A stretch of 64,000 nucleotides of DNA, taken from Rothia halotolerans. GTDB taxonomy: Bacteria; Actinomycetota; Actinomycetes; Actinomycetales; Micrococcaceae. The stretch covers positions 124,001-188,000 of the forward strand of contig NZ_NOIU01000005.1 of the NCBI RefSeq assembly GCF_004136635.1, in the 5' to 3' direction. The notes beneath the pieces were generated by a model. That model was not told the DNA's origin. It did not search any database and saw only the letters and a program-made list of their open reading frames with translations. A program made the translations under genes and the position numbers. Numbering within the stretch: the stretch's first letter is position 1; each line of letters opens with the position of its first letter. Below are positions 9,813 to 62,920 of the stretch, piece after piece.

Positions 9813-10655
9813 ATGAACGACATCCCCGCACAGCATCAGACCCCGCCAGGCGAGACGGGACGGATGAAGCCCCAGCCGGACCACGGAGAGGACAGCTACC
9901 GCGGCTCCGGCCGCCTCGAGGGCAAGGCCGCGGTCGTCACCGGCGCGGACTCGGGGATCGGGCGGGCCGTCGCGCTCGCCTTCGCCCGGGAGGGCGCCGA
10001 CGTCCTGATCTCCTACCTCGACGAGCACGAGGACGCACGCGAGACCGCCCGCCTGGTCGAGGACGCGGGGCGGAAGGCCGTGGTGCTCGCCGGCGACGTC
10101 GCGGATCCGGCGCACTGCCGCGCGATCATCGACCGCGCTCTCGAAGAGTTCGGCCACCTCGAGGTGCTCGTCAACAACGCCGCCTTCCAGATGACCCACG
10201 AGACGATCGAGGAGATCCCCGACGAGGAGTGGGACCGCACCCTGGCGATCAACCTCAGCGCGTTCTTCCACCTGGCCAAGGCGGCCGTGCCGCACTTGCC
10301 CGCAGGCGGCTCCATCATCGCCTCCACCTCCGTGAACTCCGACGACCCGCCTCCCGCGCTGCTGGCCTACAACGCCACCAAGGCCGGGATCGCCAACATG
10401 GCGGGGGACCTCTCGCAGATGCTCGGCGAACGTGGCATCCGCGTCAACTCCGTGGCCCCCGGTCCCATCTGGACCCCGCTGATCCCCTCCACGATGCCGG
10501 CCGAGCAGGTCGAAGGCTTCGGGCAGCAGGTGCCGCTGGGCCGCGCGGGGCAGCCTGCAGAGCTGGCGCCGGTCTACGTCATGCTCGCCTCCGACGAGTC
10601 GAGCTACGTCTCCGGGGCCAGGATCGCGGTCACGGGCGGAAAGCCCATCCTGTGA
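9813..10655 (+). CDS. SDR-family oxidoreductase (general-stress GSP39/YhdF-like)
   Basis: A 280-residue short-chain dehydrogenase with a 35-residue N-terminal extension. NAD(P) is bound at VVTGADSGIG (near residue 43), NNAAF is the conserved active-site-wall motif, and catalysis uses Ser in ASTSVNS and Tyr/Lys in YNATKAG. The extended N-terminus with PGETGRMKPQPDHGEDSY is typical of stress-induced SDRs such as B. subtilis GSP39 (established family knowledge). It is translationally coupled by a GTGA overlap to the following mannose-6-phosphate-isomerase-like gene. The substrate is unknown. Confidence 0.88.
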   Translation: MNDIPAQHQTPPGETGRMKPQPDHGEDSYRGSGRLEGKAAVVTGADSGIGRAVALAFAREGADVLISYLDEHEDARETARLVEDAGRKAVVLAGDVADPAHCRAIIDRALEEFGHLEVLVNNAAFQMTHETIEEIPDEEWDRTLAINLSAFFHLAKAAVPHLPAGGSIIASTSVNSDDPPPALLAYNATKAGIANMAGDLSQMLGERGIRVNSVAPGPIWTPLIPSTMPAEQVEGFGQQVPLGRAGQPAELAPVYVMLASDESSYVSGARIAVTGGKPIL

Positions 10656-31604: not shown

Positions 31605-32354
31605 ATGTCCCGTGGATGGCAAGGTCTGGTGCTGCGAGCCCTGGGGGCCAAGGAGCATCTCATCACCCTCGTCTCCAAACGCTTCTTCACGGACCACTAC
31701 GTCCGGCTGGAGTTCGAGGCGCCGACGCTGTTCAGCGACGTCGAGCCCCGCCCTGCCGCCTGGCTGCGGCTGTGGTTCCCCGACCCAGCCGGCGGGAGGA
31801 GGCAGTACCAGCGCGGCTACACCATCGCCGAGGCGGATCCGGAGGCCGGGCGTCTGATCATGGAGTTCGTCCTCCACGAGCCGGCCGGGCCCGCCTCCGC
31901 CTGGGCGCTCGGAACGGAGGCGGGGGATCAGCTGATCGCCCAGTCCCTCGGCTCGGTGCCGTTCCAGGCGCACGCCGAATCGGACCGCCTCGTGCTGCTG
32001 GCGGACCTCGCCGCCGTGCCCGCCGTCAACGCCGTCCTCCGCGAGCTCCCCGCCGAGCGCGACGTCGTCCTCCTCCTGGAGCAGGCCCACGCCGACGACG
32101 CCGGGGTCCCCCTGACGGAGCACCCCCGCCTGCGGGTCCACCGCTTCGATCGCGAGGGGCCGGCGACGATGGCCCGGCAGCTCGCGGAACAGGTCCCGGA
32201 CCTCGACGGCGCGCAGGTCTGGGCCGCGGGGGAGAGCGGCTCCCTCAAGGGGATCCGGAAGGCGGCGAGCGGCCGCGCCGGAGGCTCGAAGGCCAACACG
32301 CACATCCAGGCCTACTGGATCGCGGGGCGCGCGATGGGGACCGCGCGGGACTAG
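31605..32354 (+). CDS. Siderophore-interacting protein (FAD ferric-siderophore reductase)
   Basis: A 249-residue SIP/ViuB-family flavoprotein that reduces Fe(III)-siderophores in the cytoplasm to release Fe(II). The FAD domain holds the RGYTIAEADPE region and the C-terminal domain ends WAAGESGSLKGIR, both family hallmarks. GAAGGAG precedes the ATG at 31605; the upstream frame runs into the iron box. Iron-box control fits with the siderophore operon at 36-41 kb. Confidence 0.9.
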   Translation: MSRGWQGLVLRALGAKEHLITLVSKRFFTDHYVRLEFEAPTLFSDVEPRPAAWLRLWFPDPAGGRRQYQRGYTIAEADPEAGRLIMEFVLHEPAGPASAWALGTEAGDQLIAQSLGSVPFQAHAESDRLVLLADLAAVPAVNAVLRELPAERDVVLLLEQAHADDAGVPLTEHPRLRVHRFDREGPATMARQLAEQVPDLDGAQVWAAGESGSLKGIRKAASGRAGGSKANTHIQAYWIAGRAMGTARD

Positions 32355-32386
32355 CGGGGTATGAGGGGCGTCCCCTCCCTGGATGC

Positions 32387-33535
32387 CTACGCGGCCGCGG
32401 TCTCGAAGGTGGCCCGGACGCTCCAGCCGCCCGCGATGGGTCCTGTCTCGATGTTCCCCCCATAGACCGAGGCGCGCTCGCGCAGCCCCACCAAGCCGAA
32501 GCCGGAGGAGGGGAATTCGAGGTGGGAGCGCCGGGCCGGCTCGGCGTTGCTGATGGTCAGGCTGAGGCGGCGCTCGTCGGACTCCACCACGTAGCGGGCC
32601 CACGGGGCGCCCTGGGCGTGCTTGAGGATGTTCGTGGTCGCCTCCTGCGCGATCCTGATCAGCGTCAGTTCGAGCGAGCGGGGAAGCACGAGGTCCGCCG
32701 GGATCTCGATCTTCACCCCGATGCCCTGGGCGCGCAGGAGGGCGGCGAACTCCTGGATGCGAAGGCTCAGCCCGCCGGTGGTCTCCTCGCCGTCGGGCAC
32801 CGCGCCGGGGGCGTCCGGCCCGTACAGGACCCCGAGCATGCGACGCATGTCCTTCAACGCCTGGCGCGAGGCGTCGCCGATGGCCTGTCTGGCCTCCGCC
32901 CGGTCCTCCGGGTCAGTCGCTGTATCCAGGACGCGCGCCTGCATCGCGATGATCGTGAGATCGTGCGCGACGACATCGTGCAGCTCCCCCGCGATGCGCT
33001 TGCGCTCATCGGTGATCGCCTGTTCCCGGGTCTCCTCCTGGATGCGGACTTCCTGGCTCAGACGCATATTGCGTAATGCGGCCAGCCGTAGGGATAGGCC
33101 GAGTCCGGCTCCGAAAACCACGAGAACGCCGATGAGCAGGCATTCGTACCAGAAGTAGTTCTCGACCATGATCATGACGACGAGCCACACCACAGTGAGA
33201 GCGCCCGCCACAATGCAGAAACGACCGGTGCATGCTCGGGCCACCAGGGCGGCCATGGGCACGATCGCCATGGGGAAGGCAGTGGGATCGAAGGCGGCGT
33301 ATGAAACGATGGCGACGACGAGGAAGACCAGGGCACCCGCGGCAGGCCATCGACTGGTGAGAGCTACAAGAATTCCGACCGCAAGGACCGAGAACGCGTC
33401 CAGATATGAGGTGTCCGGCAGCTTTACCCCGGTCGCAATGAATTCCAGGATGACGACGCAGCCGACGCAGATTGCAACCGCCGCGCTTACCCAGCGCGGC
33501 AGCGGCAGAGATCTGAAGAATTCGGCTGATCTCAT
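32387..33535 (-). CDS. NarL/DesK-type sensor histidine kinase
   Basis: A 382-residue membrane kinase. About five hydrophobic helices (residues 15-150) are followed by a short coiled linker, a HisKA_3 domain with the phospho-accepting histidine in ELHDVVAHDL, and an HATPase domain ending in SSGFGLVGLRERA. I start at ATG 33535; the frame opens further upstream at a TTG (33586). There is no extracytoplasmic sensor domain, as in peptide- or membrane-sensing DesK-type kinases. The cognate regulator is encoded divergently, and a small secreted peptide gene lies between them. Confidence 0.85.
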   Translation of the reverse strand: MRSAEFFRSLPLPRWVSAAVAICVGCVVILEFIATGVKLPDTSYLDAFSVLAVGILVALTSRWPAAGALVFLVVAIVSYAAFDPTAFPMAIVPMAALVARACTGRFCIVAGALTVVWLVVMIMVENYFWYECLLIGVLVVFGAGLGLSLRLAALRNMRLSQEVRIQEETREQAITDERKRIAGELHDVVAHDLTIIAMQARVLDTATDPEDRAEARQAIGDASRQALKDMRRMLGVLYGPDAPGAVPDGEETTGGLSLRIQEFAALLRAQGIGVKIEIPADLVLPRSLELTLIRIAQEATTNILKHAQGAPWARYVVESDERRLSLTISNAEPARRSHLEFPSSGFGLVGLRERASVYGGNIETGPIAGGWSVRATFETAAA

Positions 33536-33614
33536 GGTAGGTCGGGATCTCTCTACGGGTTCATTGTCTCTGGGAAAGGCTCTCAATCGATAATACGAAC
33601 GGGTTCAGCCCGGA

Positions 33615-33779
33615 TTAGCGGCAGAGCCTCAGCACCGAGCACACCCACGAGTACGTGGTGACGGAGCCGTAGGAGGCGGTCGACGATGTCGAAGCGGCCT
33701 GAGCGGGCGCAGCCGAGGCGGCTCCCATCGGGACGGTCGCGAAGACGGCAAGGACGGCGATGGCGGCGAGACGACGCAT
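33615..33779 (-). CDS. Small secreted peptide, candidate signal of the adjacent two-component system
   Basis: A 54-residue protein with a clear Sec signal peptide: MRRLAAIAVL, a hydrophobic core and ASAAPAQAAS cleavage region near residue 28. The predicted mature part is only about 25 residues, Ser/Thr-rich, ending in VCSVLRLCR. The two cysteines, five residues apart, could form a disulfide or other ring. GAGGAG lies 8 nt before ATG 33779. The gene sits between the kinase and regulator genes, transcribed with the kinase. I know no family for it; a pheromone, a bacteriocin-like peptide or an envelope-stress reporter are all possible. Confidence 0.7.
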   Translation of the reverse strand: MRRLAAIAVLAVFATVPMGAASAAPAQAASTSSTASYGSVTTYSWVCSVLRLCR

Positions 33780-33819
33780 GGTGTACTCCTCAGTACTCAT
33801 TGCTACACACTTAAGTAGA

Positions 33820-33867
33820 TGGTAACCAGTTTCGTGTAAAATCCTATGCATTGGTTACAACTTTCGT
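33820..33867. promoter_or_regulatory. Direct repeats in the divergent peptide/regulator promoter
   Basis: GGTAACCAGTTTCGT (33821-33835) and GGTTACAACTTTCGT (33853-33867) match at 12 of 15 positions and start 32 bp apart, three helical turns. They lie between the secreted-peptide start and the response-regulator start in an AT-rich stretch. They are good candidates for binding sites of the regulator. Confidence 0.65.
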
Positions 33868-33932
33868 ATCGTTTTTGTCGATCGAACGGGGATTTCCCCA
33901 GAGGGCGGCGCACGCAACAAGGAGGTCACATC

Positions 33933-34592
33933 GTGATTGAGGTTCTCATCGTCGATGACCAGCCGCTCATGGCCAAAGCCCTGAAGGTATTCGTCGACGG
34001 CTCCGAAGGTATGACGGTGGTGGGCGAGGCCTCCGACGGCGCCGAGGCGATCCGGCAGGCGGAGATCCTCTCCCCGGACGTCGTCGTGATGGACATGCAG
34101 ATGCCGGTGATGGACGGCGTGGAGGCCACCCGGATCATCACCCGGGACCTCCCGAAGGCGCGCGTGCTGGCGGTCACCACCTTCTCCTCGGAGCAGTACC
34201 TCGTCCCCGCGCTGCGCGCCGGCGCCTCCGGCTACCTGGTCAAGGACGCGGAGCCGGAGGAGGTCGTCGCGGCGATCCGCGGCGTGTACGAGGGCAGCGG
34301 CGTCATCGCGCCGCAGGTGGCCTCGGACCTCATCGACGCCGTCCGGGAGGTCTCCACCGGACCGCTCCAGCCGGGCGGCCTCGTCGAGCACGGGCTGACG
34401 GAGCGGGAGCTCGCCGTCGTGCTCTCCTTGGCGCGGGGGAACTCGAACTCCGAGATCGCGGCCGAGCTGTTCCTCGCCGAGGCCACGGTGAAGACCCACA
34501 TGGGTCGGATCATGGACAAGTGGGGCGTGCGGGACCGGGTGCAGGTCCTGATCCACGCGGCTCAGCTCGGCCTGGTGAGGATCGGGGTCTAG
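33933..34592 (+). CDS. NarL/LuxR-family response regulator
   Basis: A 219-residue regulator: receiver domain with acidic pocket IVDDQ, phospho-Asp in VVMDMQMP, Thr in AVTTFS and Lys in YLVKDAE, then a LuxR-type helix-turn-helix (LTERELAVVLSLARGNSNSEIAAEL). The GTG at 33933 follows AAGGAGG. It is the partner of the kinase on the other strand. Direct repeats upstream of its own gene suggest autoregulation together with the peptide gene. Confidence 0.92.
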   Translation: MIEVLIVDDQPLMAKALKVFVDGSEGMTVVGEASDGAEAIRQAEILSPDVVVMDMQMPVMDGVEATRIITRDLPKARVLAVTTFSSEQYLVPALRAGASGYLVKDAEPEEVVAAIRGVYEGSGVIAPQVASDLIDAVREVSTGPLQPGGLVEHGLTERELAVVLSLARGNSNSEIAAELFLAEATVKTHMGRIMDKWGVRDRVQVLIHAAQLGLVRIGV

Positions 34593-34622
34593 GACTCCCG
34601 CGGAAGACCTCGCCGGGGCCCG

Positions 34623-35495
34623 TCACCCCGCGAACGGTCGTACCGGCTGTCCGGTCGTTCCCGGCTCGGCCACGAAGACCGCGCCGGCTTCCGGCTGCTC
34701 TCCCTCGGGCACGTTCTCGCGGCTCGTCGTGATGAACAGGCGCTCGAGCCCCGGGCCGCCGAAGGTGCAGGCCGAGACGTTGGTGACCGGCAGCTCGACC
34801 ACCTCGACCAGCCGCCCCCGGGGATCCCGGCACTCCACCCGGGAACCGCCGTAGATCGCCGTCCAGACGTTGCCCTCGGCGTCGACGCAGAGCCCGTCGG
34901 GACCCGCTGCGTCGGCGTCGTCGAGGGCGAACAGCGGGCGCGGGTCGTGCAGACCGGCCTCGGGGTCCCAGGAGTAGACGGTCGTCCGGTGGGACGGGGT
35001 GTCGTTGTAGTAGGCGAGGGCTCCATCCGGGCTCCAGCCGATCCCGTTCGAGACGGTGACGTCTGCGCGTATCGTGCGGCGGCTGCCGTCCGCGGAGACC
35101 TCGACGAGCACTGCGCCGCCGGTCTCCTGGTCGTAGCGCGTGGAGCCGACGAGGAGGGTGCCGGCGGGGGAGCAGCCGCCCTCGTTGAGCCGCGCGGCCG
35201 GGTCCTCGAGCACGGTCGAGAAAGGCCGCAGGCCGCCGAGGGCCGGATCCTCGGTCACGCTCAGGCCGTGCTCCGTGGCCACGACGGCACCGCCTCCGGC
35301 GCGGGGCCGCAGCATCGCGGCGATCGGGCTCCCCACCTCCGCGACGGCGATGCCCGCCGCGCTCTCGGTGAGCACGCGTCCGTTCGTCATGTCGACCCAT
35401 CGCAGCGTGTTCGCGACGGGAGAGCCGTCATCGGGCCACCAGACGGGGCCTTCGGCGTGGAACGCCACGGGGTCGGTGTGCTGCGCGGCATGCAT
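34623..35495 (-). CDS. SMP-30/gluconolactonase-like beta-propeller protein
   Basis: A 290-residue six-bladed propeller of the SMP-30/regucalcin family. Metal and active-site positions are seen in AEGPVWW (Glu), RLNEGG, SNGIGWSPDG (Asn) and GPDGLCVDAEGNVW (Asp), enough for lactonase activity. The start at 35495 begins just before the conserved AEGP region. It converges on the response regulator with a 30-bp gap. Hydrolysis of a sugar lactone is the family function; the substrate is unknown. Confidence 0.85.
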   Translation of the reverse strand: MHAAQHTDPVAFHAEGPVWWPDDGSPVANTLRWVDMTNGRVLTESAAGIAVAEVGSPIAAMLRPRAGGGAVVATEHGLSVTEDPALGGLRPFSTVLEDPAARLNEGGCSPAGTLLVGSTRYDQETGGAVLVEVSADGSRRTIRADVTVSNGIGWSPDGALAYYNDTPSHRTTVYSWDPEAGLHDPRPLFALDDADAAGPDGLCVDAEGNVWTAIYGGSRVECRDPRGRLVEVVELPVTNVSACTFGGPGLERLFITTSRENVPEGEQPEAGAVFVAEPGTTGQPVRPFAG

Positions 35496-35595
35496 ACTTC
35501 TTATTCTATGGATCCGCCTGCGCCTTCGTATAGTCGGGTTGTGAGCGTCAGCCGGAAGCCGGAGCAGACGGACACGTCGAGGGATGCGGGGCACG

Positions 35596-36249
35596 ATGAA
35601 CGGACACAGCGGAAAAGACTTCTGGGTGCGTGTGGGATATGCGCTCCTCGGGGTCGCGGTGATCGGGCTCGGGGCCTCGATCCTCCAGGTCGGCGGCGTC
35701 GGCGTGGACCCCTACACCGCGCTCAACATCGGCGTCAGCGACCAGCTGGGATGGACGCTGGGAAGCTACCAGCTCCTGAGCAACATCGTGCTCTTCATCC
35801 CGGTGCTGATCTGGGGGAGGCAGTACATCGGCTGGGGGAGCGTCATCAACATGGTGATGACGGGGTTCTTCATCGACCTCTTCTCCGCGGTCCTCGAGCT
35901 CTTCGTCCCCGATGAGCGCTCCCTGCTCGTCATGACGGTGTTCTTCGTGCTCGGCAGCATCACCTTCGCGTTCGGAGCGAGCGCATACATGACCGCGGGG
36001 CTGGGCACGGCGCCGTACGACGCGATCGCGCCCATGATCGTGGACCACACCCGGTGGGAGTACCAGAAGGTGCGTGTCCCCCAGGACGTCCTCGTGGTGG
36101 CGTCCGCTGTGCTCTTCCGCGGCCCGGTGGGCTTCGGCACGGTCATGACGGCGTTCTTCAACGGCCCGCTGATCCAGTTCTTCACGAAGCGGGTGCACCA
36201 GCCCGTGCTGGCGAAGCTGACGGGGTCCCCCGTGGAGGAGGCCGGCTGA
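35596..36249 (+). CDS. YczE/YyaS/YitT-family integral membrane protein
   Basis: A 217-residue membrane protein with five hydrophobic helices and the family segments LGASILQVGGVGVDPYTALN and TAGLGTAPYDAI. ATG 35596 is chosen over the in-frame ATG at 35584. The function is not established for the family; some members lie near siderophore or antibiotic genes. Confidence 0.82.
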   Translation: MNGHSGKDFWVRVGYALLGVAVIGLGASILQVGGVGVDPYTALNIGVSDQLGWTLGSYQLLSNIVLFIPVLIWGRQYIGWGSVINMVMTGFFIDLFSAVLELFVPDERSLLVMTVFFVLGSITFAFGASAYMTAGLGTAPYDAIAPMIVDHTRWEYQKVRVPQDVLVVASAVLFRGPVGFGTVMTAFFNGPLIQFFTKRVHQPVLAKLTGSPVEEAG

Positions 36250-36355
36250 CGGGTTGCCCCCGGTCAGGCACGCGCCTGGAGCTCGCGAACCCCTCGGAGG
36301 CTCTCGGCCGGCGCTCCTCCGCCGCTCCTCGCACCCGGGCCACCGGGTCCGGCCG

Positions 36356-36404
36356 CCGCGGAGGCGTCGGCTTACGCCCCTTTGCGGGGCCGGCGCCTCC
36401 GCGG
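36356..36404. terminator. Bidirectional terminator
   Basis: A 16-bp stem with one mismatch (36356-36371 with 36389-36404) encloses a second small GCCCC/GGGGC hairpin. It lies between convergent genes, the YczE-like protein and the siderophore operon end. Confidence 0.7.
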
Positions 36405-36414
36405 GCCCGCGCGC

Positions 36415-37434
36415 TCAGCGGCGGAGGGTCAGCGTCGTGCAGCGGATGTAGCCCCCGCCCTTGGCAAGCTCGCTGATCCGGGGCGTGTGGGTCCGGAGCC
36501 CCCGCTCCTCCAGCGCCGCCCGCAGCCGGGGCGCGCTCGCGCTCATCACGACGTCGTGCCCGGTGGAGACCAGGTTGCACGCGAAGTGCTCGCGGGCCTC
36601 CCGCTCGTCCACCTCGATGAGGTCGACGCCCTCCAGGCTGCGCAGCGCCTCCCGGCTGGGGGCGTCGAAGGCCTCGGGGCAGTAGGCGATCAGTCCGGGG
36701 GAGCCCTCGGAGGGCTCGGCGACGACCGCCAGGGCGAGGTCGATGTCGTAGTAGAAGCTGTCCTCCCAGCCGGTGACGCCGTTGACCACCGGGGCGCCGG
36801 CGTCGTCGAGCTGGGGCACGGTGCGCAGCTGCACGCGCTCCAGGCCGAGGGCCTCACAGGCGAAGGCCTGGGCCTCGGCGTCGGACCGGTAGCCCTGGCC
36901 GCAGAGGGCGTAGCGGCCGCAGACCAGCGCGTCGCCCTGGCCGGAGAACCTCGTCCCGGCGGGGGCCTCGAGCGTGGCGAATCCGAGGCCCTCGAGGAGC
37001 TGGCGGGCGTGCTCCTCCTCGGCCCGGCGGGCGTGCGGCAGCCGGGCCATCACCGCGGTCCCGCCGTGCAGCAGCGCCCAGTTGGCGGTGTACACCCCGT
37101 CCTGGCTCTCCTCCGGCGGATCCACCGAGACCACCTCGACGCCGACCCGCTCCAGGGTCTGCCGGATCTCCCGGTGCTCCTCGACGGCGGCGTCCCGGTC
37201 CAGGGCGGCTTCCGAGTAGTACGGGTTGAGCGCATCGGTGGTGCGGAAGTGCTCGGGCGAGGACATCAGCACCACGGGGTTGAACGGCGGGGTCCCGGCG
37301 GAGCGCTCGGCGGCGTCGCGAGCCGAGGCCCCGGGACGGGCCGCGGGCGCGGGGCGTGCCGACGTGCCGGTGCGGATCGACGCCTCGGGGCGGGCCGATG
37401 CCCCTGCGGGAGCCGGCGCGGCGGTCCGGCTCAT
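36415..37434 (-). CDS. Dimethylargininase/arginine-deiminase-like amidinohydrolase
   Basis: A 339-residue pentein-fold protein (DDAH/arginine deiminase superfamily) with a Ser/Ala/Arg-rich N-terminal stretch of about 45 residues. The nucleophile cysteine is near the C-terminus in GGGYIRCTTL, and GTRFSGQGDALV and STGHDVVMSA are conserved. The catalytic histidine normally found in a HxD motif reads DID (FYYDIDLAL), so the chemistry may differ. Its ATG overlaps the N-hydroxylase stop (ATGA), making it the last gene of the siderophore precursor operon. Supplying ornithine or modifying a guanidino group of the siderophore are possible roles. Confidence 0.72.
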   Translation of the reverse strand: MSRTAAPAPAGASARPEASIRTGTSARPAPAARPGASARDAAERSAGTPPFNPVVLMSSPEHFRTTDALNPYYSEAALDRDAAVEEHREIRQTLERVGVEVVSVDPPEESQDGVYTANWALLHGGTAVMARLPHARRAEEEHARQLLEGLGFATLEAPAGTRFSGQGDALVCGRYALCGQGYRSDAEAQAFACEALGLERVQLRTVPQLDDAGAPVVNGVTGWEDSFYYDIDLALAVVAEPSEGSPGLIAYCPEAFDAPSREALRSLEGVDLIEVDEREAREHFACNLVSTGHDVVMSASAPRLRAALEERGLRTHTPRISELAKGGGYIRCTTLTLRR

Positions 37435-38864
37435 CGGGCGGCGCCGGCGCGCTCGCCGGTGAGGGAGGCGAGGATCTCGCCGGCCCGCAGCGCGATGTTG
37501 GACAGCAGCGTCGCGGAGACCCCGTGCTGGTGCTGGGTGATCCCGACCGCCACCAGGCGCCCCTCGGCGGGGGCCTGCCAGCGCACCGAGTAGTCGCGCT
37601 CGGCGACCACGCGGCCCTCGGCGTCGCGGGCCAGCAGGTCGGCGTCCTCGCCCAGCAGCGCCCGCAGGTCCAGCGGCCGGTAGCCGGTACCCAGCGCCAG
37701 GACGTCGCTGCGCAGGTGCTCGACGTCGCCGTCCAGGTCGTTGCGCACCGCCACGTCCAGGCCGTCCTCGCTCGGCTCGACGCCGGCGATCCGCGAGGCG
37801 TCGTGGAAGACGATCCGCTCCCGCCCGGCCCACGAATCCGCGTACCAGGCGTCGTAGAGAGCCTGGATGGTGCTCTCGTGGACCACCGAGTTGTTGGTGT
37901 TCGCGTGGATGCGGCCCAGGCGCTCGCGGACCTCCTCGGGCGCCTCGTAGAGCCGGTCGATCGAGGTGTTGTCGAAGATCCGGTTGGCGAACGGCGTGGA
38001 GTCGGCCGGCACGATGCCGAAGCGCGAGTGCACCAAGTGGACCCGCGCGTCGGGGAAGCGGGAGCGCAGGTCCAGGGCCACCTCGGCCGCGCTCTGCCCG
38101 CCGCCGAGCACGACGGCGGAGCGCACCTCGCCCAGCCCCTCGACCCGGTGCAGGTACCGCGAGGTGTGCAGCACCCGCTCGTCCTCGGGCAGCCCCTCGG
38201 GCACGTTCGGCTGCAGTCCCGCGGCGACGACGACGTGGCGCGCCAGCACGGTCGAGACCCCCTCGGGCCCCTCCACGGTGACGCGGTAGCCGGTGATCGT
38301 CTCCCCGGAGCGCTGCGGCTGAACGGCGGTCACGCGGTGGCGGTACCGCACGTACTCGGCGAGCCGCTCCGCCGCCCACCGGAGGTAGGCGAAGAACTCC
38401 ACGCGCAGCGGCGCCGAGGACCCGCGGTTGAAGAAGTCGTGGATCCGGCCCCGCTCCACCAGGAAGTTGAGGAAGCTCAGGGAGGAGGTCGGGTTCCGGA
38501 ACGTCACGAGGTCCTTGGCGAAGGAGACCTGGAGGCCGGCGTCGGGCAGCAGCATCCCCTCGTGCCAGGAGGGGCCCTCCGCGGCGTCGAAGAACACGGC
38601 GTGCTGGGCGCCGGGGTCCTCCGAGCAGGCGGCGGCCAGCGCCATGTTGGAGGGGCCGAAGCCGACGCCGACGATGTCGTACCGCTCCTCGCCCTCGCCG
38701 GACGCGGGGCCGGCGGCGCCGCCGCCGGGGGAGGCCGTGCGGGCGGGAGACCCGGCGTCGAGGCCGGCCGGACGGGCGGGGGGGCCCTCCGCCCGGGGGC
38801 CGCGGTCCGTCGCGAGGCCGTCGTCCGTGCGGGCGGGGAGCCGGAGGTCCGAGGTGGCGGTCAT
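37431..38864 (-). CDS. L-lysine/L-ornithine N-monooxygenase (siderophore amine hydroxylase)
   Basis: A 477-residue flavin N-hydroxylase of the IucD/SidA/PvdA group. After a 60-residue low-complexity N-terminus come the FAD motif VGVGFGPSNMALA, FLNFLVERGR, the NADPH motif VLGGGQSAAEVA and the C-terminal LGTGYRPL. It makes the N-hydroxy diamine that becomes a hydroxamate iron ligand. GGAAGGAC precedes the ATG, which overlaps the upstream stop. Lysine versus ornithine preference cannot be decided. It is in one operon with catechol (DHB) genes, implying a mixed catecholate-hydroxamate siderophore. Confidence 0.88.
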   Translation of the reverse strand: MTATSDLRLPARTDDGLATDRGPRAEGPPARPAGLDAGSPARTASPGGGAAGPASGEGEERYDIVGVGFGPSNMALAAACSEDPGAQHAVFFDAAEGPSWHEGMLLPDAGLQVSFAKDLVTFRNPTSSLSFLNFLVERGRIHDFFNRGSSAPLRVEFFAYLRWAAERLAEYVRYRHRVTAVQPQRSGETITGYRVTVEGPEGVSTVLARHVVVAAGLQPNVPEGLPEDERVLHTSRYLHRVEGLGEVRSAVVLGGGQSAAEVALDLRSRFPDARVHLVHSRFGIVPADSTPFANRIFDNTSIDRLYEAPEEVRERLGRIHANTNNSVVHESTIQALYDAWYADSWAGRERIVFHDASRIAGVEPSEDGLDVAVRNDLDGDVEHLRSDVLALGTGYRPLDLRALLGEDADLLARDAEGRVVAERDYSVRWQAPAEGRLVAVGITQHQHGVSATLLSNIALRAGEILASLTGERAGAAR

Positions 38865-40015
38865 AGAAGTCCTTCCAGAGTGCGGAGCATGGTGCTGAAT
38901 TTCGCGCCGGTCTCCTCGTGTTCGCCGGCCGGGGTGGAGCCGGAGACGACGCCGGCCCCCGCGTAGAGGGTCAGCGCCTCCCCCCGGCTGCTGGCGCAGC
39001 GCAGGACGAGCGACCAGCGGCCGTTGCCGCTGGAGTCGGTCCATCCCACCAGCCCCGAGTAGAAGCCGCGCGAGGCGCCCTCCAGCTCGCGGATCATGCG
39101 CAGCGCGGGAGCGGCCGGGGTCCCGCCCACGGCGGGGGTGGGGTGCAGCGCCAGGGCGGCCTCCAGGGCGGAGACCTCCGGATGCAGCCGGCCGGTGATC
39201 CGGGTGCCCAGGTGCCACATGGCGTCGGTGCCGAACAGCTCGGGCTCCTCCGGGAGGCTGAGCTCCTCGGCCAGCGGCGCGAGGGCCTCGGCGATGTGCC
39301 GGGTGACGAACCGGTGCTCGTGGAGGTCCTTCGCCGAGGCGGAGAGCCGCTCGGCGGCGGTCTCGGCGTCGAGCCCTCCCGGCGTGCGCGGCAGGGAGCC
39401 GGCGAGCGGATGGGTCAGGAACCGGGAGTCGCTGACGTCGGCGATGATCTCGGGGCTGGCGCCCACCCAGGTCTCGCCCTCGGCCCGGCGGACCCGGAAC
39501 ACGTCGGCGCGGCGGCTCGAGGCGGCCAGGCGCTCGGCGATGAGGCGGGAGGCCTCCGGGAGGCGGGCGGCGTCGAGGGCCAGCGTCATGGTGCGGGAGA
39601 GCACCGCCTTCTCCGCCTCGCCCGCCTCGATCCGGCGCAGCGCCTCCGCCACGATGGCCCGGTAGGCGGGGGAGTCGGCCGGCGGGCGGGCATCGCCCTC
39701 GGCGCCGAGCGAGGTCGCCTCCACGGTGCGGGGGCGCCACGCGGCGCGGTCGGCCACGTGCAGGTCGGCGGGCTCGGTGAGGTCGAAGGGGATGAGGCCG
39801 TACAGGAGCTGGGTGCGCCCGGTGGCACGCTCGCGGTCCCGCAGCCGCTCGAGGAGGTCCCGGGCGGCCTCGGGGGAGGAGAGGACAGGGGTGAGACGGT
39901 CCCCGCCTTCGGCGCGCAGGGTCCAGCGGCCCGAGGTCATGGTGAAGTCCGGGTCCAGGCGGGCGGGGTCCGCGGGCGCGGGGGAGGATCCGGTGCGGAG
40001 GGTCTCGAGGCTCAT
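38861..40015 (-). CDS. dhbC: Isochorismate synthase
   Basis: A 384-residue chorismate-utilising enzyme (EntC/DhbC type), converting chorismate to isochorismate with Mg2+. Typical segments are EKAVLSRTMTLAL, THPLAGSLPRTP, FVTRHIAEAL, HLGTRITGRLHPEVSAL and GFYSGLVGW. The start at 40015 overlaps the upstream dehydrogenase stop (ATGA). It is the first committed step of 2,3-dihydroxybenzoate synthesis; the other two enzymes are the upstream genes of this operon. Confidence 0.92.
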   Translation of the reverse strand: MSLETLRTGSSPAPADPARLDPDFTMTSGRWTLRAEGGDRLTPVLSSPEAARDLLERLRDRERATGRTQLLYGLIPFDLTEPADLHVADRAAWRPRTVEATSLGAEGDARPPADSPAYRAIVAEALRRIEAGEAEKAVLSRTMTLALDAARLPEASRLIAERLAASSRRADVFRVRRAEGETWVGASPEIIADVSDSRFLTHPLAGSLPRTPGGLDAETAAERLSASAKDLHEHRFVTRHIAEALAPLAEELSLPEEPELFGTDAMWHLGTRITGRLHPEVSALEAALALHPTPAVGGTPAAPALRMIRELEGASRGFYSGLVGWTDSSGNGRWSLVLRCASSRGEALTLYAGAGVVSGSTPAGEHEETGAKFSTMLRTLEGLL

Positions 40016-40797
40016 CGCTGGGTCGCACCCCCGTCCACGCTGATCTCGGCCAGCGCCACGTGCGCGGCGCGCGGGGAGACGAGGAACTCGACGACCTCGG
40101 CGACGTCGTGCGCCTCGGCGACCCGGCCGAGCGGGATGCCGGGGCGGAACACGCTCGGGTCCCCGGCCACGGCCTCCGCGGAGCGATCGGCGCCGCCCCA
40201 CAGCGTCTCGACCATCGGCGTCCGGGTGGTCCCCGGGTTCACGACGTTGCAGCGGATCCCGTGCTCCGCGACCTCCAGGCCGAGGCTGCGGGTGTAGTGG
40301 GAGGCGAAGGCCTTGCTCGCGCCGTAGGCGGAGAAGCCGGCCCGCGGCCCGTTGCCCGCGTTGGAGGCGATGGTCACGATGGCCCGCTCGGGGCGCTCGC
40401 CGGGGACGTGCCCGCCCTGCTCCGCCATGATGCGCGCGGCCTCGGCGCTGACGTGGGCCACGCCCAGGGCGTTGACCTCGACCATGCGCCGCAGCTCCGC
40501 GTCGGGGGTCTCCAGGGCGGGGACGGAGGCCAGGACGCCGGCGGCGTTGACGACGGCGCGCAGACGGTAGCGGGAGGCCAGGCCGCACAGTGCCGCCCGG
40601 ACGGCGCCGGCGTCGGAGACGTCGAGGGCCAGGCGCTCGACGCCGGCCGCCTCCTCGCCGGAGGCGGCCGCGACGTCGGCGGCGATCACCACCGCGTCGC
40701 CGTGGTCCCCCGCCCGCCGGGCCAGCAGCTCGACGACGGCACGCCCGATCCCTCCGGAGGCCCCCGTGACGAGGATGGCCGTGGGTTCCGGGCTCAT
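40012..40797 (-). CDS. dhbA: 2,3-dihydro-2,3-dihydroxybenzoate dehydrogenase
   Basis: A 261-residue SDR of the EntA/DhbA type. NAD is bound at VTGASGGIGRAV; catalysis uses Ser in TIASNAG and Tyr/Lys in YGASKAF. It oxidises dihydro-DHB, formed by the isochorismatase, to 2,3-dihydroxybenzoate. Both ends overlap neighbours by 4 bp. The family assignment as a DHB dehydrogenase rests on operon context as well as length. Confidence 0.88.
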   Translation of the reverse strand: MSPEPTAILVTGASGGIGRAVVELLARRAGDHGDAVVIAADVAAASGEEAAGVERLALDVSDAGAVRAALCGLASRYRLRAVVNAAGVLASVPALETPDAELRRMVEVNALGVAHVSAEAARIMAEQGGHVPGERPERAIVTIASNAGNGPRAGFSAYGASKAFASHYTRSLGLEVAEHGIRCNVVNPGTTRTPMVETLWGGADRSAEAVAGDPSVFRPGIPLGRVAEAHDVAEVVEFLVSPRAAHVALAEISVDGGATQR

Positions 40798-41474
40798 GCG
40801 GTCAGGACCCCGCCGGCGGCGCCCGCGCCCACGGCCGCGCCGCGGGCCAGGTCGGCCTTGACGTCGGCGCTCAGGCAGGTCTGGCCGCACCGGGAGGCCA
40901 CGTAGTCGAGGGCCATGCGGTGGTCCTCCTCGGTGAAGTCCGCCTGGGCGTCGGCGACGAAGAACACCTGGAAGCCGAGCATGAAGGCGGCCAGCGCGGT
41001 GGTCATGCAGCCGATGTGGGAGTAGACGCCGGTGATGATCAGCTGGTCGCGGCCGTGGTTGCGCATGCGGTGCTCGAGGTCGCTGCGGAAGAAGGCGCTG
41101 TAGCGCCACTTGGTGAGCACGATGTCGCGCTCGGTCGGGGCGAGCCGGTCGATGATCGCGGCGGCCCGCTCGTCGTCGAGCCCGGGGCCCCAGAACTCGG
41201 TCAGCAGCTGGCGGTCGGCCGGGTCCTGCGAGGGCGGCTGGGCCGTGTAGATGGCGGGCACGCCGGCCTCGGCGCAGGCGGCCCGGATCGAGGCGATCTC
41301 CTCGACGGCGAGGCTGATCTGAGCGTCAGGGCCGCCGTCGAAGGCGTCCACGAAGTGGTTCTGCATGTCGTGGACCAGCAGCATGGCGCGACGCGGGTCC
41401 AGGGTCCAGGAGGTGCGGTTCTTCCACCGCTCGCCGGGATCCAGTCGGTACGGCGTGATGAGTGGCAGGCTCAC
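40794..41474 (-). CDS. dhbB: Isochorismatase without aryl-carrier domain
   Basis: A 226-residue isochorismatase with the catalytic triad Asp (LLVHDMQNHF), Lys (VLTKWRYSAF) and Cys (GVYSHIGCMTTAL). EntB and DhbB are usually about 285-310 residues with a C-terminal aryl-carrier domain carrying a pantetheine serine; here the protein stops after the hydrolase domain. A carrier protein must be encoded elsewhere. The start is GTG 41474, with AGGAG inside an iron-box-like palindrome. It is the first gene of the five-gene operon. Confidence 0.88.
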   Translation of the reverse strand: MSLPLITPYRLDPGERWKNRTSWTLDPRRAMLLVHDMQNHFVDAFDGGPDAQISLAVEEIASIRAACAEAGVPAIYTAQPPSQDPADRQLLTEFWGPGLDDERAAAIIDRLAPTERDIVLTKWRYSAFFRSDLEHRMRNHGRDQLIITGVYSHIGCMTTALAAFMLGFQVFFVADAQADFTEEDHRMALDYVASRCGQTCLSADVKADLARGAAVGAGAAGGVLTA

Positions 41475-60250: not shown

Positions 60251-61217
60251 GACCACCTCACTCCCGGGGCAGACGCACTTCGTCGCCCCCTCCTCCGAGA
60301 CGCCGCTGCAGGCCACCGGCATGGTGGACACCAGCGCCCCGCCCGAAGGCCAGTGGAAGGAGGCGTGGAAGGTCCTGCGCCGCAACTGGCTCTTCTGGGT
60401 CTCCGCCATCCTGCTGCTGTTCATCCTCGTGGTGGTGTGCTTCCCCGGCCTGTTCACCGGCGTCGACCCGCGCCAGTCGATGCTCTCGAAGAGCCTCCAG
60501 GGGCCGCAGTCCGGGCACCCGTTCGGCTTCGACAAGCAGGGGTACGACGTGTACTCCCGCGTGGTCTACGGGGCTCGCGCCTCCGTCGTCGTCGGCCTGC
60601 TGACCACCGTCATCGTGACCGTCATCGGGCTGTTCACGGGCGCCGTCGCCGGCTTCTTCGGACGCTGGGTGGACGCGCTGGTCTCCCGCATCGCGGACAT
60701 CTTCTTCGCGATCCCGCTGCTGCTGGCCGCGATCGTCGGGCTCTCCGCGCTGAACAACGTCTGGCCGGACCGGGGCTACTGGGGCGGCGTGCTCGCGGTG
60801 GTCTTCGCCCTGGCGGCGTTCGGCTGGCCGCAGGTCACCAGGATCGCCCGCGGCGCCGTGCTGGAGATCCGGGGGCTGGAGTTCGTCGACGCCTCGCGGG
60901 CCATCGGGGCCTCGAAGTGGCGGAACCTGTTCTCCCACATCATCCCGAACTCGCTGGCGCCGGTGATCGTCACGGCCACCGTCTCCCTGGGCGTCTACAT
61001 CGTCGCCGAGGCGACCCTGTCCTTCCTGGGCATCGGCCTGCCGCCGAGCATCGTCTCCTGGGGCAACGACATCGCCGCGGCCCAGAGCCAGGTGCGCTCC
61101 GGCGACAACCTCCACGTCCTGTTCGCCCCCGCCGGCGCGCTCGCCGTCACCGTCCTGAGCTTCATGCTCCTGGGCGACGCCGTGCGCGATGCGCTCGACC
61201 CGAAAGCGAGGAAGTGA
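60243..61217 (+). CDS. oppC: Oligopeptide ABC transporter permease (OppC/DppC)
   Basis: A 324-residue permease. A soluble N-terminal stretch of about 45 residues precedes the first helix; the EAA loop reads EFVDASRAIGASKWRN, and TLSFLGIGLPPSIVSWG is the OppC signature. Its stop overlaps the ATPase start (TGATGA). It forms the channel with OppB. Confidence 0.92.
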   Translation: MPETTSLPGQTHFVAPSSETPLQATGMVDTSAPPEGQWKEAWKVLRRNWLFWVSAILLLFILVVVCFPGLFTGVDPRQSMLSKSLQGPQSGHPFGFDKQGYDVYSRVVYGARASVVVGLLTTVIVTVIGLFTGAVAGFFGRWVDALVSRIADIFFAIPLLLAAIVGLSALNNVWPDRGYWGGVLAVVFALAAFGWPQVTRIARGAVLEIRGLEFVDASRAIGASKWRNLFSHIIPNSLAPVIVTATVSLGVYIVAEATLSFLGIGLPPSIVSWGNDIAAAQSQVRSGDNLHVLFAPAGALAVTVLSFMLLGDAVRDALDPKARK

Positions 61218-62920
61218 TGACACAGCCTCTCCTGCAGATCAGGGATCTGCACATCGCCTTCACCTCCGGCAAGAAGGACGTCCCCGCCGTGCGCGGCGTC
61301 GACCTCACCGTCTACCCCGGCCAGACCGTGGCCATCGTGGGGGAGTCGGGCTCGGGGAAGTCGACGACGGCGCACGCCGTCATCGACCTGTTGCCCGGCA
61401 CCGGTCACGTCACCGCAGGCTCCATTGAGTTCGACGGCGTCGACCTCATGAAGCTCGGCGGCCGCAGGCGCCGCTCCTACCGGGGCGACCGGATCGGCCT
61501 GGTGCCCCAGGACCCGATGTCCAACCTCAACCCGCTGTACCGGGTCGGGGCGCAGATCAAGGAGGTCCTGGAGGTCAACGACGTCGCGCGGGGCAAGGCC
61601 GCGGACCGCCGCGTCGTCGAGCTGCTGGAGGAGGCGGGACTGGGTGACGCCGAGGCCCGCGCCAAGCAGTACCCGCACGAGTACTCCGGCGGCATGCGCC
61701 AGCGCGCGCTGATCGCCGCCGGCCTGGCGGCCCGGCCCCAGCTGCTGATCGCGGACGAGCCGACCTCGGCGCTGGACGTGACGGTGCAGAAGCAGATCCT
61801 GGACCACCTGGACGGGCTGACGGACGAGCTCGGCGTCGCGGTCCTGCTCATCACGCACGACCTCGGCCTGGCCGCCGAGCGCGCGGACCACCTGGTGGTC
61901 ATGTACAAGGGTCAGGTCGTCGAGTCGGGACCCGCGCTGCAGATCCTCCGGGACCCGCAGCACCCGTACTCGCAGCGGCTCATCAGCTCCGCGCCCTCCC
62001 TGCGCTCCCGCCGGCTGGCGGCCAGCGAGCGGGCCGAGGTGCGGGAGGAGGCAACGGAGGCCGCGCTGGAGGTCGCCGAGGATACCATCGCGGAGGCCTC
62101 CGAGTTCGGCGGCGAGGCCACCGGCCCGGTGATCCGCGCGACGGACCTGACCAAGGTCTTCAAGCTGCCGGGCAAGGGGTTCTCCAAACGGGACTTCACG
62201 GCGGTGGACTCGGTGTCCTTCGCGCTCGAGCGCGGCACCACCACCGCGATCGTGGGCGAGTCGGGGTCGGGGAAGTCGACGGTCGCGCGCATGGTCCTGG
62301 ACCTGCTGGAACCGACCTCCGGGACGGTGGAGTTCGACGGCGTCGACGTCGGCTCCATCCGCACCCGCGCCCAGCAGCTGGACTTCCGGCGCCGGGTGCA
62401 GCCCGTCTTCCAGAACCCGTACGCCTCACTGGACCCCATGTACTCCATCTACCGGTCCATCGAGGAGCCGCTGCGGCTGCACGGCGTCGGCACGGGCAAG
62501 GAGCGGGAACGGAAGATCAGGGACCTGCTGGACAAGGTCTCGCTGCCGGGCGCGGTGATGTCGAGGTACCCGAACGAGCTGTCCGGCGGGCAGCGCCAGC
62601 GCGTGGCGATCGCCCGCGCCCTGGCGCTGGACCCGGAGGTCGTGGTGCTGGACGAGGCGGTCTCCGCGCTGGACGTGCTGGTGCAGGCGCAGATCCTCAA
62701 GCTGCTCAACGACCTGCAGGCCGAGCTGGGGCTGAGCTACCTGTTCATCACGCACGACCTCGCGGTGGTACGGCAGATCGCGGACCAGGTGCTGGTGATG
62801 CAGAAGGGCCGCGTCGTCGAGCAGGCGGGCAGCCTCGAGGTCTTCGACCATCCGCGCGAGGAGTACACCAAGCGGCTGCTGGCGGCGATCCCGGGGCGGA
62901 GCGTAGAGCCGGCGTCCTGA
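61217..62920 (+). CDS. Fused double ATPase of the oligopeptide transporter (OppD-OppF)
   Basis: A 567-residue protein with two complete ABC modules in one chain. Module 1: Walker A GESGSGKSTT, signature YSGGMRQR, Walker B LLIADEP. Module 2: GESGSGKSTV, LSGGQRQR, VVLDEA. Each has its own HPYSQRLISSAP or REEYTKRLLAAIP oligopeptide-type end. A linker of about 50 charged residues joins them. Module 2's Walker B reads DEA where DEP is usual. It powers peptide import through OppBC. The fused format is common in actinobacteria. Confidence 0.92.
   Translation: MTQPLLQIRDLHIAFTSGKKDVPAVRGVDLTVYPGQTVAIVGESGSGKSTTAHAVIDLLPGTGHVTAGSIEFDGVDLMKLGGRRRRSYRGDRIGLVPQDPMSNLNPLYRVGAQIKEVLEVNDVARGKAADRRVVELLEEAGLGDAEARAKQYPHEYSGGMRQRALIAAGLAARPQLLIADEPTSALDVTVQKQILDHLDGLTDELGVAVLLITHDLGLAAERADHLVVMYKGQVVESGPALQILRDPQHPYSQRLISSAPSLRSRRLAASERAEVREEATEAALEVAEDTIAEASEFGGEATGPVIRATDLTKVFKLPGKGFSKRDFTAVDSVSFALERGTTTAIVGESGSGKSTVARMVLDLLEPTSGTVEFDGVDVGSIRTRAQQLDFRRRVQPVFQNPYASLDPMYSIYRSIEEPLRLHGVGTGKERERKIRDLLDKVSLPGAVMSRYPNELSGGQRQRVAIARALALDPEVVVLDEAVSALDVLVQAQILKLLNDLQAELGLSYLFITHDLAVVRQIADQVLVMQKGRVVEQAGSLEVFDHPREEYTKRLLAAIPGRSVEPAS

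Follow-up and report, generated by a model that had tools for sequence, protein, structure and literature searches.

A putative secreted ring-peptide signal encoded between a DesK-type kinase and a NarL-type regulator in Rothia halotolerans

What is the role of a 54-residue open reading frame (ORF) that lies between the gene of a membrane histidine kinase and that of a divergent response regulator? The question is raised by a locus of Rothia halotolerans within the window analysed here, a stretch of 64,000 nucleotides (contig NZ_NOIU01000005.1, positions 124,001 to 188,000) from a genome of 3.04 Mb. The original prediction placed a kinase, a secreted peptide and a regulator at 32387-34592, and all three genes are present there: the peptide gene lies 5' of a DesK-type kinase gene on the same strand, and is divergent from a NarL/LuxR-type regulator gene (Table 1). 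We consider it probable that this three-gene unit encodes a Sec-exported, disulphide-ringed pheromone of hypervariable specificity, for which the adjacent kinase is the sensor in the membrane.

The three-gene unit and its counterpart in Rothia santali

The precursor (MRRLAAIAVLAVFATVPMGAASAAPAQAASTSSTASYGSVTTYSWVCSVLRLCR) ends in W-V-C-x5-C-R. In-frame upstream ATGs would extend the ORF to 61 or 78 residues; the inner ATG, at 33779, was taken as the start because the Shine-Dalgarno sequence, GAGGAG, lies 6 nt before it and serves it, so that the gene is, as had been proposed, well initiated. The GTG start of the regulator at 33933 has AGGAGG 7 nt upstream. The N-terminal part of the precursor points to export by Sec, and its two possible AXA cleavage sites, after residue 23 or 28, would leave a mature part of 31 or 26 residues; the smaller value is close to the approximately 25 residues first suggested, and the larger one exceeds it. 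The two cysteines would then close a C-terminal disulphide ring, which, given that there are two of them, is a simpler inference than a thiolactone. The peptide had been thought to fall in no recognised family, and scans of Pfam and NCBIfam indeed matched it to none. Likewise, among the 12 peptides scanned none scored above the cut-off of either collection, the weak matches listed for ten relatives' peptides falling mostly in the signal-peptide part.

A set of 35 genomes of the same Genome Taxonomy Database (GTDB) genus yielded convincing peptide matches in two, that of the window and that of R. santali (73% identity, E 5.7e-17). The kinase has the same distribution: in a search of 395 genomes of the family, which include all 35 genus members, 34 genomes gave matches at E 1e-40 or better, and these two were the only ones within the genus. 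R. santali has the same three-gene layout, and the peptide ORF, its start and its termini are kept. Conservation beside an orthologous kinase was thus borne out, with a distinctive distribution along the peptide: 25 of 29 leader residues, all eight of the GSVTTYSW segment and both of the terminal CR are identical, versus none of the five in the ring interior (SVLRL in the window, HAFYF in R. santali). The codons follow suit, with nucleotide identities of 72/87 for the leader, 21/24 for GSVTTYSW, 6/6 for the final CR and 4/15 for the ring. In the kinase, the membrane part is 48% and the catalytic part 74% identical between the two species, an asymmetry that matches that of ring versus leader in the peptide. 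In the intergenic region, the AACCA/TGGTT core of a pair of inverted half-sites is also kept in R. santali; as judged from the sequence, these half-sites are a candidate regulator site and a plausible place for autoregulation. A scan for a sigma-70 consensus gave no match.

The kinase matches HisKA_3 in Pfam (1.8e-17); its HATPase_c match (0.0056) is below the cut-off, but the DesK core nonetheless matches by sequence and by fold, and DesK provides the nearest solved structures on both measures. NCBIfam gave nothing above its cut-off for the kinase. The regulator matches Response_reg (4.4e-29) and GerE (5.7e-17) in Pfam. Hydropathy and AlphaFold2 predict six membrane helices in the kinase (approximately residues 14-36, 44-62, 64-79, 87-101, 104-123 and 129-155), joined by loops of at most 7 residues and followed by the dimerisation and ATPase domains. 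In the AlphaFold2 model, which was built from 30 sequences and has a mean predicted local distance difference test score of 77 and a predicted template modelling score of 0.42, a long helix runs from the membrane bundle into the DesK-like core. Since the modelled kinase has no sensor domain outside the membrane, any ligand would need to engage the membrane bundle or its short loops, and a small, ringed, hydrophobic peptide suits such a site.

Ring peptides beside related kinases

A peptide-led search of the 395 family genomes gave, below the two Rothia matches, only hits at E 0.001 or weaker, and the 13 weak loci inspected were chance or signal-peptide matches. As the peptide itself therefore led only to R. 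santali, kinase-led searches were employed, covering the 395 family genomes, 396 genomes of the order, 11 Micrococcus genomes and 27 genomes of a further genus (g5), and the loci retrieved were examined for short ORFs with a cysteine pair at their end, a pattern that would miss peptides of another kind. By eye, ring peptides were seen at 14/30 family-search loci, 14/30 order-search loci (one of these beyond the regulator), 8/22 Micrococcus loci (one of which had already come up in the order search) and 17/26 g5 loci, the first two counts each including the window's own locus. A class-wide kinase search at a cut-off of 1e-70 matched 4 of 345 genomes, all from the same order, a cut-off strict enough that absence elsewhere is not implied. 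A tblastn search of plasmids with the kinase returned 38 records; the 30 listed were all below 60% identity, mostly matched the catalytic part and came from Streptomycetaceae and a few others.

Curation by eye gave a set of 47 loci, from 39 genomes, at which a peptide with C-x4-9-C at its C terminus is encoded 5' of a related kinase. The set spans six GTDB families of one order (f1, f3, f11, f13, f17 and f19) and includes Micrococcus; the linkage of a peptide gene to the kinase and regulator genes thus extends across species. The peptide is upstream on the kinase's strand at 41 of the 47 loci, and at 37 there is also a divergent regulator, as in Rothia. There are 39 different rings, with interiors of 6 residues in 23 loci, 5 in 16, 4 in three, 7 in three and 9 in two; 36 of the 47 contain Trp, Phe or Tyr, and two systems with different rings occur in 8 of the 39 genomes. 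Seven g5 loci have similar leaders (an MKKKLTTA-like start and an APANA or APATA end), behind which lie rings that include CGWFPVFC, CYYVPFWC and CKWWPVFC. Variable peptides beside orthologous kinases had been predicted, and they were found in R. santali and, beside related kinases, across this set. All 37 curated precursors of at least 40 residues have an AXA-type motif within residues 16-40, which is a weak test, and most of them, judged by eye, start with basic residues followed by a hydrophobic stretch. Left out of the set were a doubtful peptide at L256 and a ring peptide at L227 (genome G057; 10031-10279), which ends in FVPCDWMGFRLC and lies beyond the regulator rather than between the genes.

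A strict automatic filter was also applied, requiring a Shine-Dalgarno sequence, a length of 26-100, a hydrophobic N-terminal part, a basic residue near the start, a terminal C-x3-8-C and a position no more than 1 kb upstream of the kinase. It passed 31 of 108 kinase loci (family 8/30; order 9/30, including L198, which we regard as a false positive; Micrococcus 4/22; g5 10/26), none of the 108 when the same stretches were read backwards, and none of 79 other HisKA_3 loci, mainly from streptomycetes and their relatives. The difference between 31/108 and 0/79 has a Fisher p of 6e-9, although the 108 loci are not all independent, some places having been fetched repeatedly and the window locus standing in both the family and the order sets. 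The filter was also run on 40 longer stretches, roughly half of which had been picked because a peptide had already been seen; 15 ORFs that passed fell in 132 kb near kinases versus 3 in 481 kb elsewhere, and two of the latter three are system peptides lying just beyond the regulator. Elsewhere in the window's genome, five other stretches matching the kinase profile (the kinase being recovered in four) contained no comparable exported ring peptide; two pattern matches there, of 16 and 72 residues, looked unrelated.

Across 44 non-redundant systems, ring-segment distance correlates with the distance between kinase membrane parts (Mantel r 0.52) and between catalytic parts (r 0.51). Ring and membrane part remain correlated once catalytic-part distance is regressed out (partial r 0.21; p 0.0005, 2000 permutations). 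Such co-variation would be expected of a ligand and its receptor, although relatedness is only partly controlled.

Proposed mechanism, neighbouring genes and rival explanations

We propose that the 54-residue precursor would leave the cell by the Sec route and lose its signal sequence to signal peptidase, and that outside the cell its two cysteines would close a seven-residue C-terminal ring. The small hydrophobic peptide so formed would be sensed by the adjacent kinase through the six-helix membrane domain, and the kinase would then control the phosphorylation of the divergent NarL-type regulator, a direction of response that we infer. The regulator, in turn, may act on the shared promoter, giving autoinduction, and on other targets. 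The ring would set specificity and change fast, and in some relatives the likely outputs are genes for bacteriocins or for ribosomally synthesised and post-translationally modified peptides (RiPPs). We also lean, with less assurance, towards the wider proposal that these loci form a large undescribed actinobacterial family of pherotypes, in which Sec-exported peptides with hypervariable rings, each with its own DesK-type kinase and NarL-type regulator, occur in several families of one order, sometimes two to a genome, and control bacteriocins.

Several observations weigh against the proposed mechanism. The unit is rare in its own genus, and the remaining kinase loci searched showed no ring peptide by eye, some of them reaching a contig end (e.g. 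L142). The 79 control kinases come mainly from other families, and in the Mantel test the catalytic part is the sole control for relatedness. Of the 47 curated peptides, ten have a length of just 18-36 residues and, by eye, no full signal peptide; three of the ten start with TTG or GTG (L276, L289 and L281). Linear hydrophobic ORFs of 15 residues, each with a Shine-Dalgarno sequence, take the place of the ring peptide upstream of related kinases in one other family (L174:1389-1436, MGIFYVFGKMIGIFR; L175:2693-2740, MGIFYIFGKMIGIFR; L242:1361-1408, MPFWQQVGKFFGLVR; L234:7196-7243, MTFWQQLCWILGITR), and these, together with the short leaderless forms, do not fit simple Sec export. With respect to outputs, the 20-base promoter core, allowing up to 3 mismatches, has one site per genome in both Rothia genomes, so that no regulon is visible by this search. 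No bacteriocin-type gene was found near the window unit in the gene list by eye, in Pfam scans of seven neighbours or in the query search described below. Matches to ATP-binding cassette (ABC) transporters, at 17 of 46 stretches with a ring peptide and 5 of 11 without, lend no support.

Of the 46 stretches taken at peptide-positive places, six have bacteriocin-type or YcaO neighbours, versus none of the 11 without a ring peptide; the six are L201, L203, L204, L209, L219 and L220, of which L201, L203 and L219 supplied the queries. At L219 and L220 a 114-residue ORF lies directly downstream of the kinase, followed by genes for membrane, ABC and SpoIIM (PF01944) proteins; by its resemblance to circular bacteriocin precursors and by the SpoIIM neighbours, it is labelled circular-bacteriocin-like. 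L209, in Micrococcus, and L201, in another genus, have basic ORFs of 57-59 residues near bPH_2 (PF03703) genes; by resemblance and by these neighbours, the ORFs are labelled leaderless-bacteriocin-like. The Micrococcus unit at L207 also lies near bPH_2 genes. Neither the leaderless-like ORF of L201 nor the circular-like one of L219 had a Pfam or NCBIfam match at E 0.01, and a PDB search with the leaderless-like ORF of L209 gave nothing meaningful. L203 and L204 have YcaO (PF02624) genes together with ABC genes; the one YcaO protein scanned is SagD-like, below the NCBIfam cut-off.

None of the bacteriocin, YcaO or ABC queries matched the two R. santali stretches, and within the window they matched only a distant ABC gene (60251-62920), with no YcaO. 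Nor was a modification enzyme of a lanthipeptide or other RiPP seen by the window peptide, in Pfam scans of seven neighbours and the gene list by eye. Control of bacteriocins is thus a possible output of the family, suggested for some relatives and not for the window member. Around the window unit (31605-41474) are siderophore-type genes, for a siderophore-interacting protein, a lysine/ornithine N-oxygenase, a chorismate-binding enzyme and an isochorismatase, with SMP-30-like, YitT-like and DDAH-like genes between them. The unit itself lies between the gene of the interacting protein and the biosynthesis-type genes. Control of these nearby genes was considered and not adopted, because a simple gene list of R. 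santali did not show the interacting-protein gene beside the kinase.

Table 1. Features of the three-gene unit in the window, and gene groups near related units at other loci
Feature	Position	Strand	Basis or remark
Sensor histidine kinase, DesK/HisKA_3 type, 382 residues	32387..33535	-	ATG start; ORF, Pfam
Secreted-peptide precursor (putative), 54 residues	33615..33779	-	ORF; orthologue in Rothia santali
Predicted Sec-type signal peptide, residues 1-23	33711..33779	-	MRR, hydrophobic core, ASA/AQA; probable cleavage site
GSVTTYSW segment just before ring	33645..33668	-	8/8 residues same in R. santali
C-x5-C, putative disulphide ring CSVLRLC (R. santali CHAFYFC)	33621..33641	-	Ring closure predicted
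Shine-Dalgarno GAGGAG of peptide gene	33786..33791	-	Unchanged in R. santali
Shared divergent promoter region	33780..33932	.	Strong conservation between two Rothia species
Candidate regulator site, inverted half-sites GTAACCA (33822-33828) and TGGTTAC (33852-33858)	33822..33858	.	By eye
Response regulator, 219 residues, NarL/LuxR type (REC + GerE)	33933..34592	+	GTG start; Pfam
Circular-bacteriocin-like precursor with membrane, ABC and SpoIIM genes	L219:3974-7190; L220:8417-11662
Short basic ORFs near bPH_2 genes	L209:4418-4843; L201:6014-6238
YcaO (PF02624) and ABC transporter genes near ring-peptide units, two genera	L203:8975-12424; L204:3464-6806

The neighbouring genes bear on an alternative in which the peptide would serve as an antimicrobial in its own right, namely a short bacteriocin ending in a disulphide ring. 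The kinase and regulator would then either control its expression or sense the damage that it, or the peptides of rivals, does to the cell envelope. Such a role would suit the amphipathic, aromatic-rich rings, the variable sequence (which also fits an arms race) and the bacteriocin-type genes at some loci. However, where a bacteriocin-like gene is seen (L219, L220, L201 and L209) it is separate from the ring peptide, neither an immunity gene nor a transport gene showed up next to the peptide gene of Rothia in the gene list or by Pfam of its neighbours, and the peptide co-varies with the kinase membrane part beyond the catalytic part; we regard an antimicrobial as unlikely. The co-variation, like the tight linkage, fits any direct contact, including one in which the exported peptide acts in cis as an inhibitory or stabilising accessory subunit of the kinase of the same cell, with no intercellular signal. 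A precedent is the streptomycete kinase SenS, which is reported to have a secreted partner, HbpS (PMC4991794). Against this stand the complete replacement of rings between kept flanks, the very short peptides and the genomes with two differently ringed systems, which together argue for specificity rather than structure and make an accessory subunit unlikely.

The position of the ORF, 5' on the kinase strand in 41 of 47 loci and 0-237 nt from the matched kinase stretch, would equally be expected of a leader or attenuator, an upstream ORF adjusting how the kinase gene is translated or transcribed. Yet the ORF is on the opposite strand in the other six loci, the longer precursors have their AXA-type motif (a weak test, as noted) and mostly a basic then hydrophobic start, and protein-level conservation holds for the leader and GSVTTYSW but not for the ring; attenuation is accordingly a very improbable explanation. 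High-GC DNA is rich in spurious ORFs, 80 of at least 30 residues being found in 12 kb, and it was also considered whether the ORF had arisen by chance in a high-GC promoter region between divergent genes. The orthologue with its shared start, Shine-Dalgarno sequence and motif, and the failure of the strict filter to pass any reversed stretch or other kinase locus, leave next to no room for it, and the conservation pattern makes a chance ORF very unlikely.

Comparison with known signalling systems

The best-known signals between actinobacterial cells are gamma-butyrolactones. Peptide pheromones paired with two-component systems are known as a general kind, whereas the combination of ring, Sec export and DesK-type kinase is not described in the literature searched. 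The original prediction knew of no described actinobacterial system with such a layout, which was contradicted neither by Pfam and NCBIfam nor by searches of an open-access library; those searches, which did not extend to subscription papers or preprints, showed no description of such a system. Peptide-kinase pairs that can be read from genomes, in easily grown Micrococcus among others, would make peptide signalling in the phylum directly testable, tell which peptides to synthesise and provide engineers with orthogonal pairs of signal and receptor, with bacteriocin-like clusters indicated as possible outputs.

The catalytic core of the kinase and the type of regulator are those of DesK-DesR, by Pfam and by the nearest solved structures. 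DesK, however, responds to membrane fluidity and is not known to have a partner peptide, whereas the membrane part of the present kinases co-varies with a linked, putatively secreted peptide. The 15-29-residue leaderless forms in some relatives recall Rgg/SHP and the RRNPP systems, where very short peptide genes also lie beside the receptor; the receptors there are cytoplasmic regulators fed by peptide import, in contrast to the membrane kinase here.

Parallels are also found in the three-component systems that regulate class II bacteriocins (PlnABCD, Blp and ComCDE), where the peptide gene likewise adjoins those of the kinase and regulator. There, too, some genomes have two units, and bacteriocin-type genes lie beside a few relatives of the window unit. 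The differences lie in the leader, which is probably of Sec type with an AXA motif here and of the double-glycine type with a dedicated exporter there, and in the DesK/NarL-type partners and the actinobacterial hosts.

In the staphylococcal agr system (AgrD-AgrB-AgrC-AgrA), AgrC senses a ring peptide. Both systems have a small, hydrophobic, ringed peptide with a hypervariable ring (the ring being putative here), both have a six-helix kinase membrane domain with no large outside domain, and in both the membrane part of the receptor changes in step with the peptide. They differ in export, by a predicted Sec signal peptide here and by AgrB, which also carries out cyclisation, in agr; no AgrB-like gene was seen beside the unit in the gene list by eye or in Pfam scans of seven neighbours, the rest of the genome not having been searched for AgrB. 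They differ also in the ring, which would be closed by a disulphide between two cysteines here and is a thiolactone with the C-terminal carboxylate in agr, and in the signalling proteins, a HisKA_3/NarL-type pair whose regulator carries a GerE and not a LytTR domain, in contrast to the HPK10/LytTR pair of agr. If the proposed pherotype family is real, it would represent agr-like communication assembled from unrelated parts, with no need for a dedicated exporter or cyclase.

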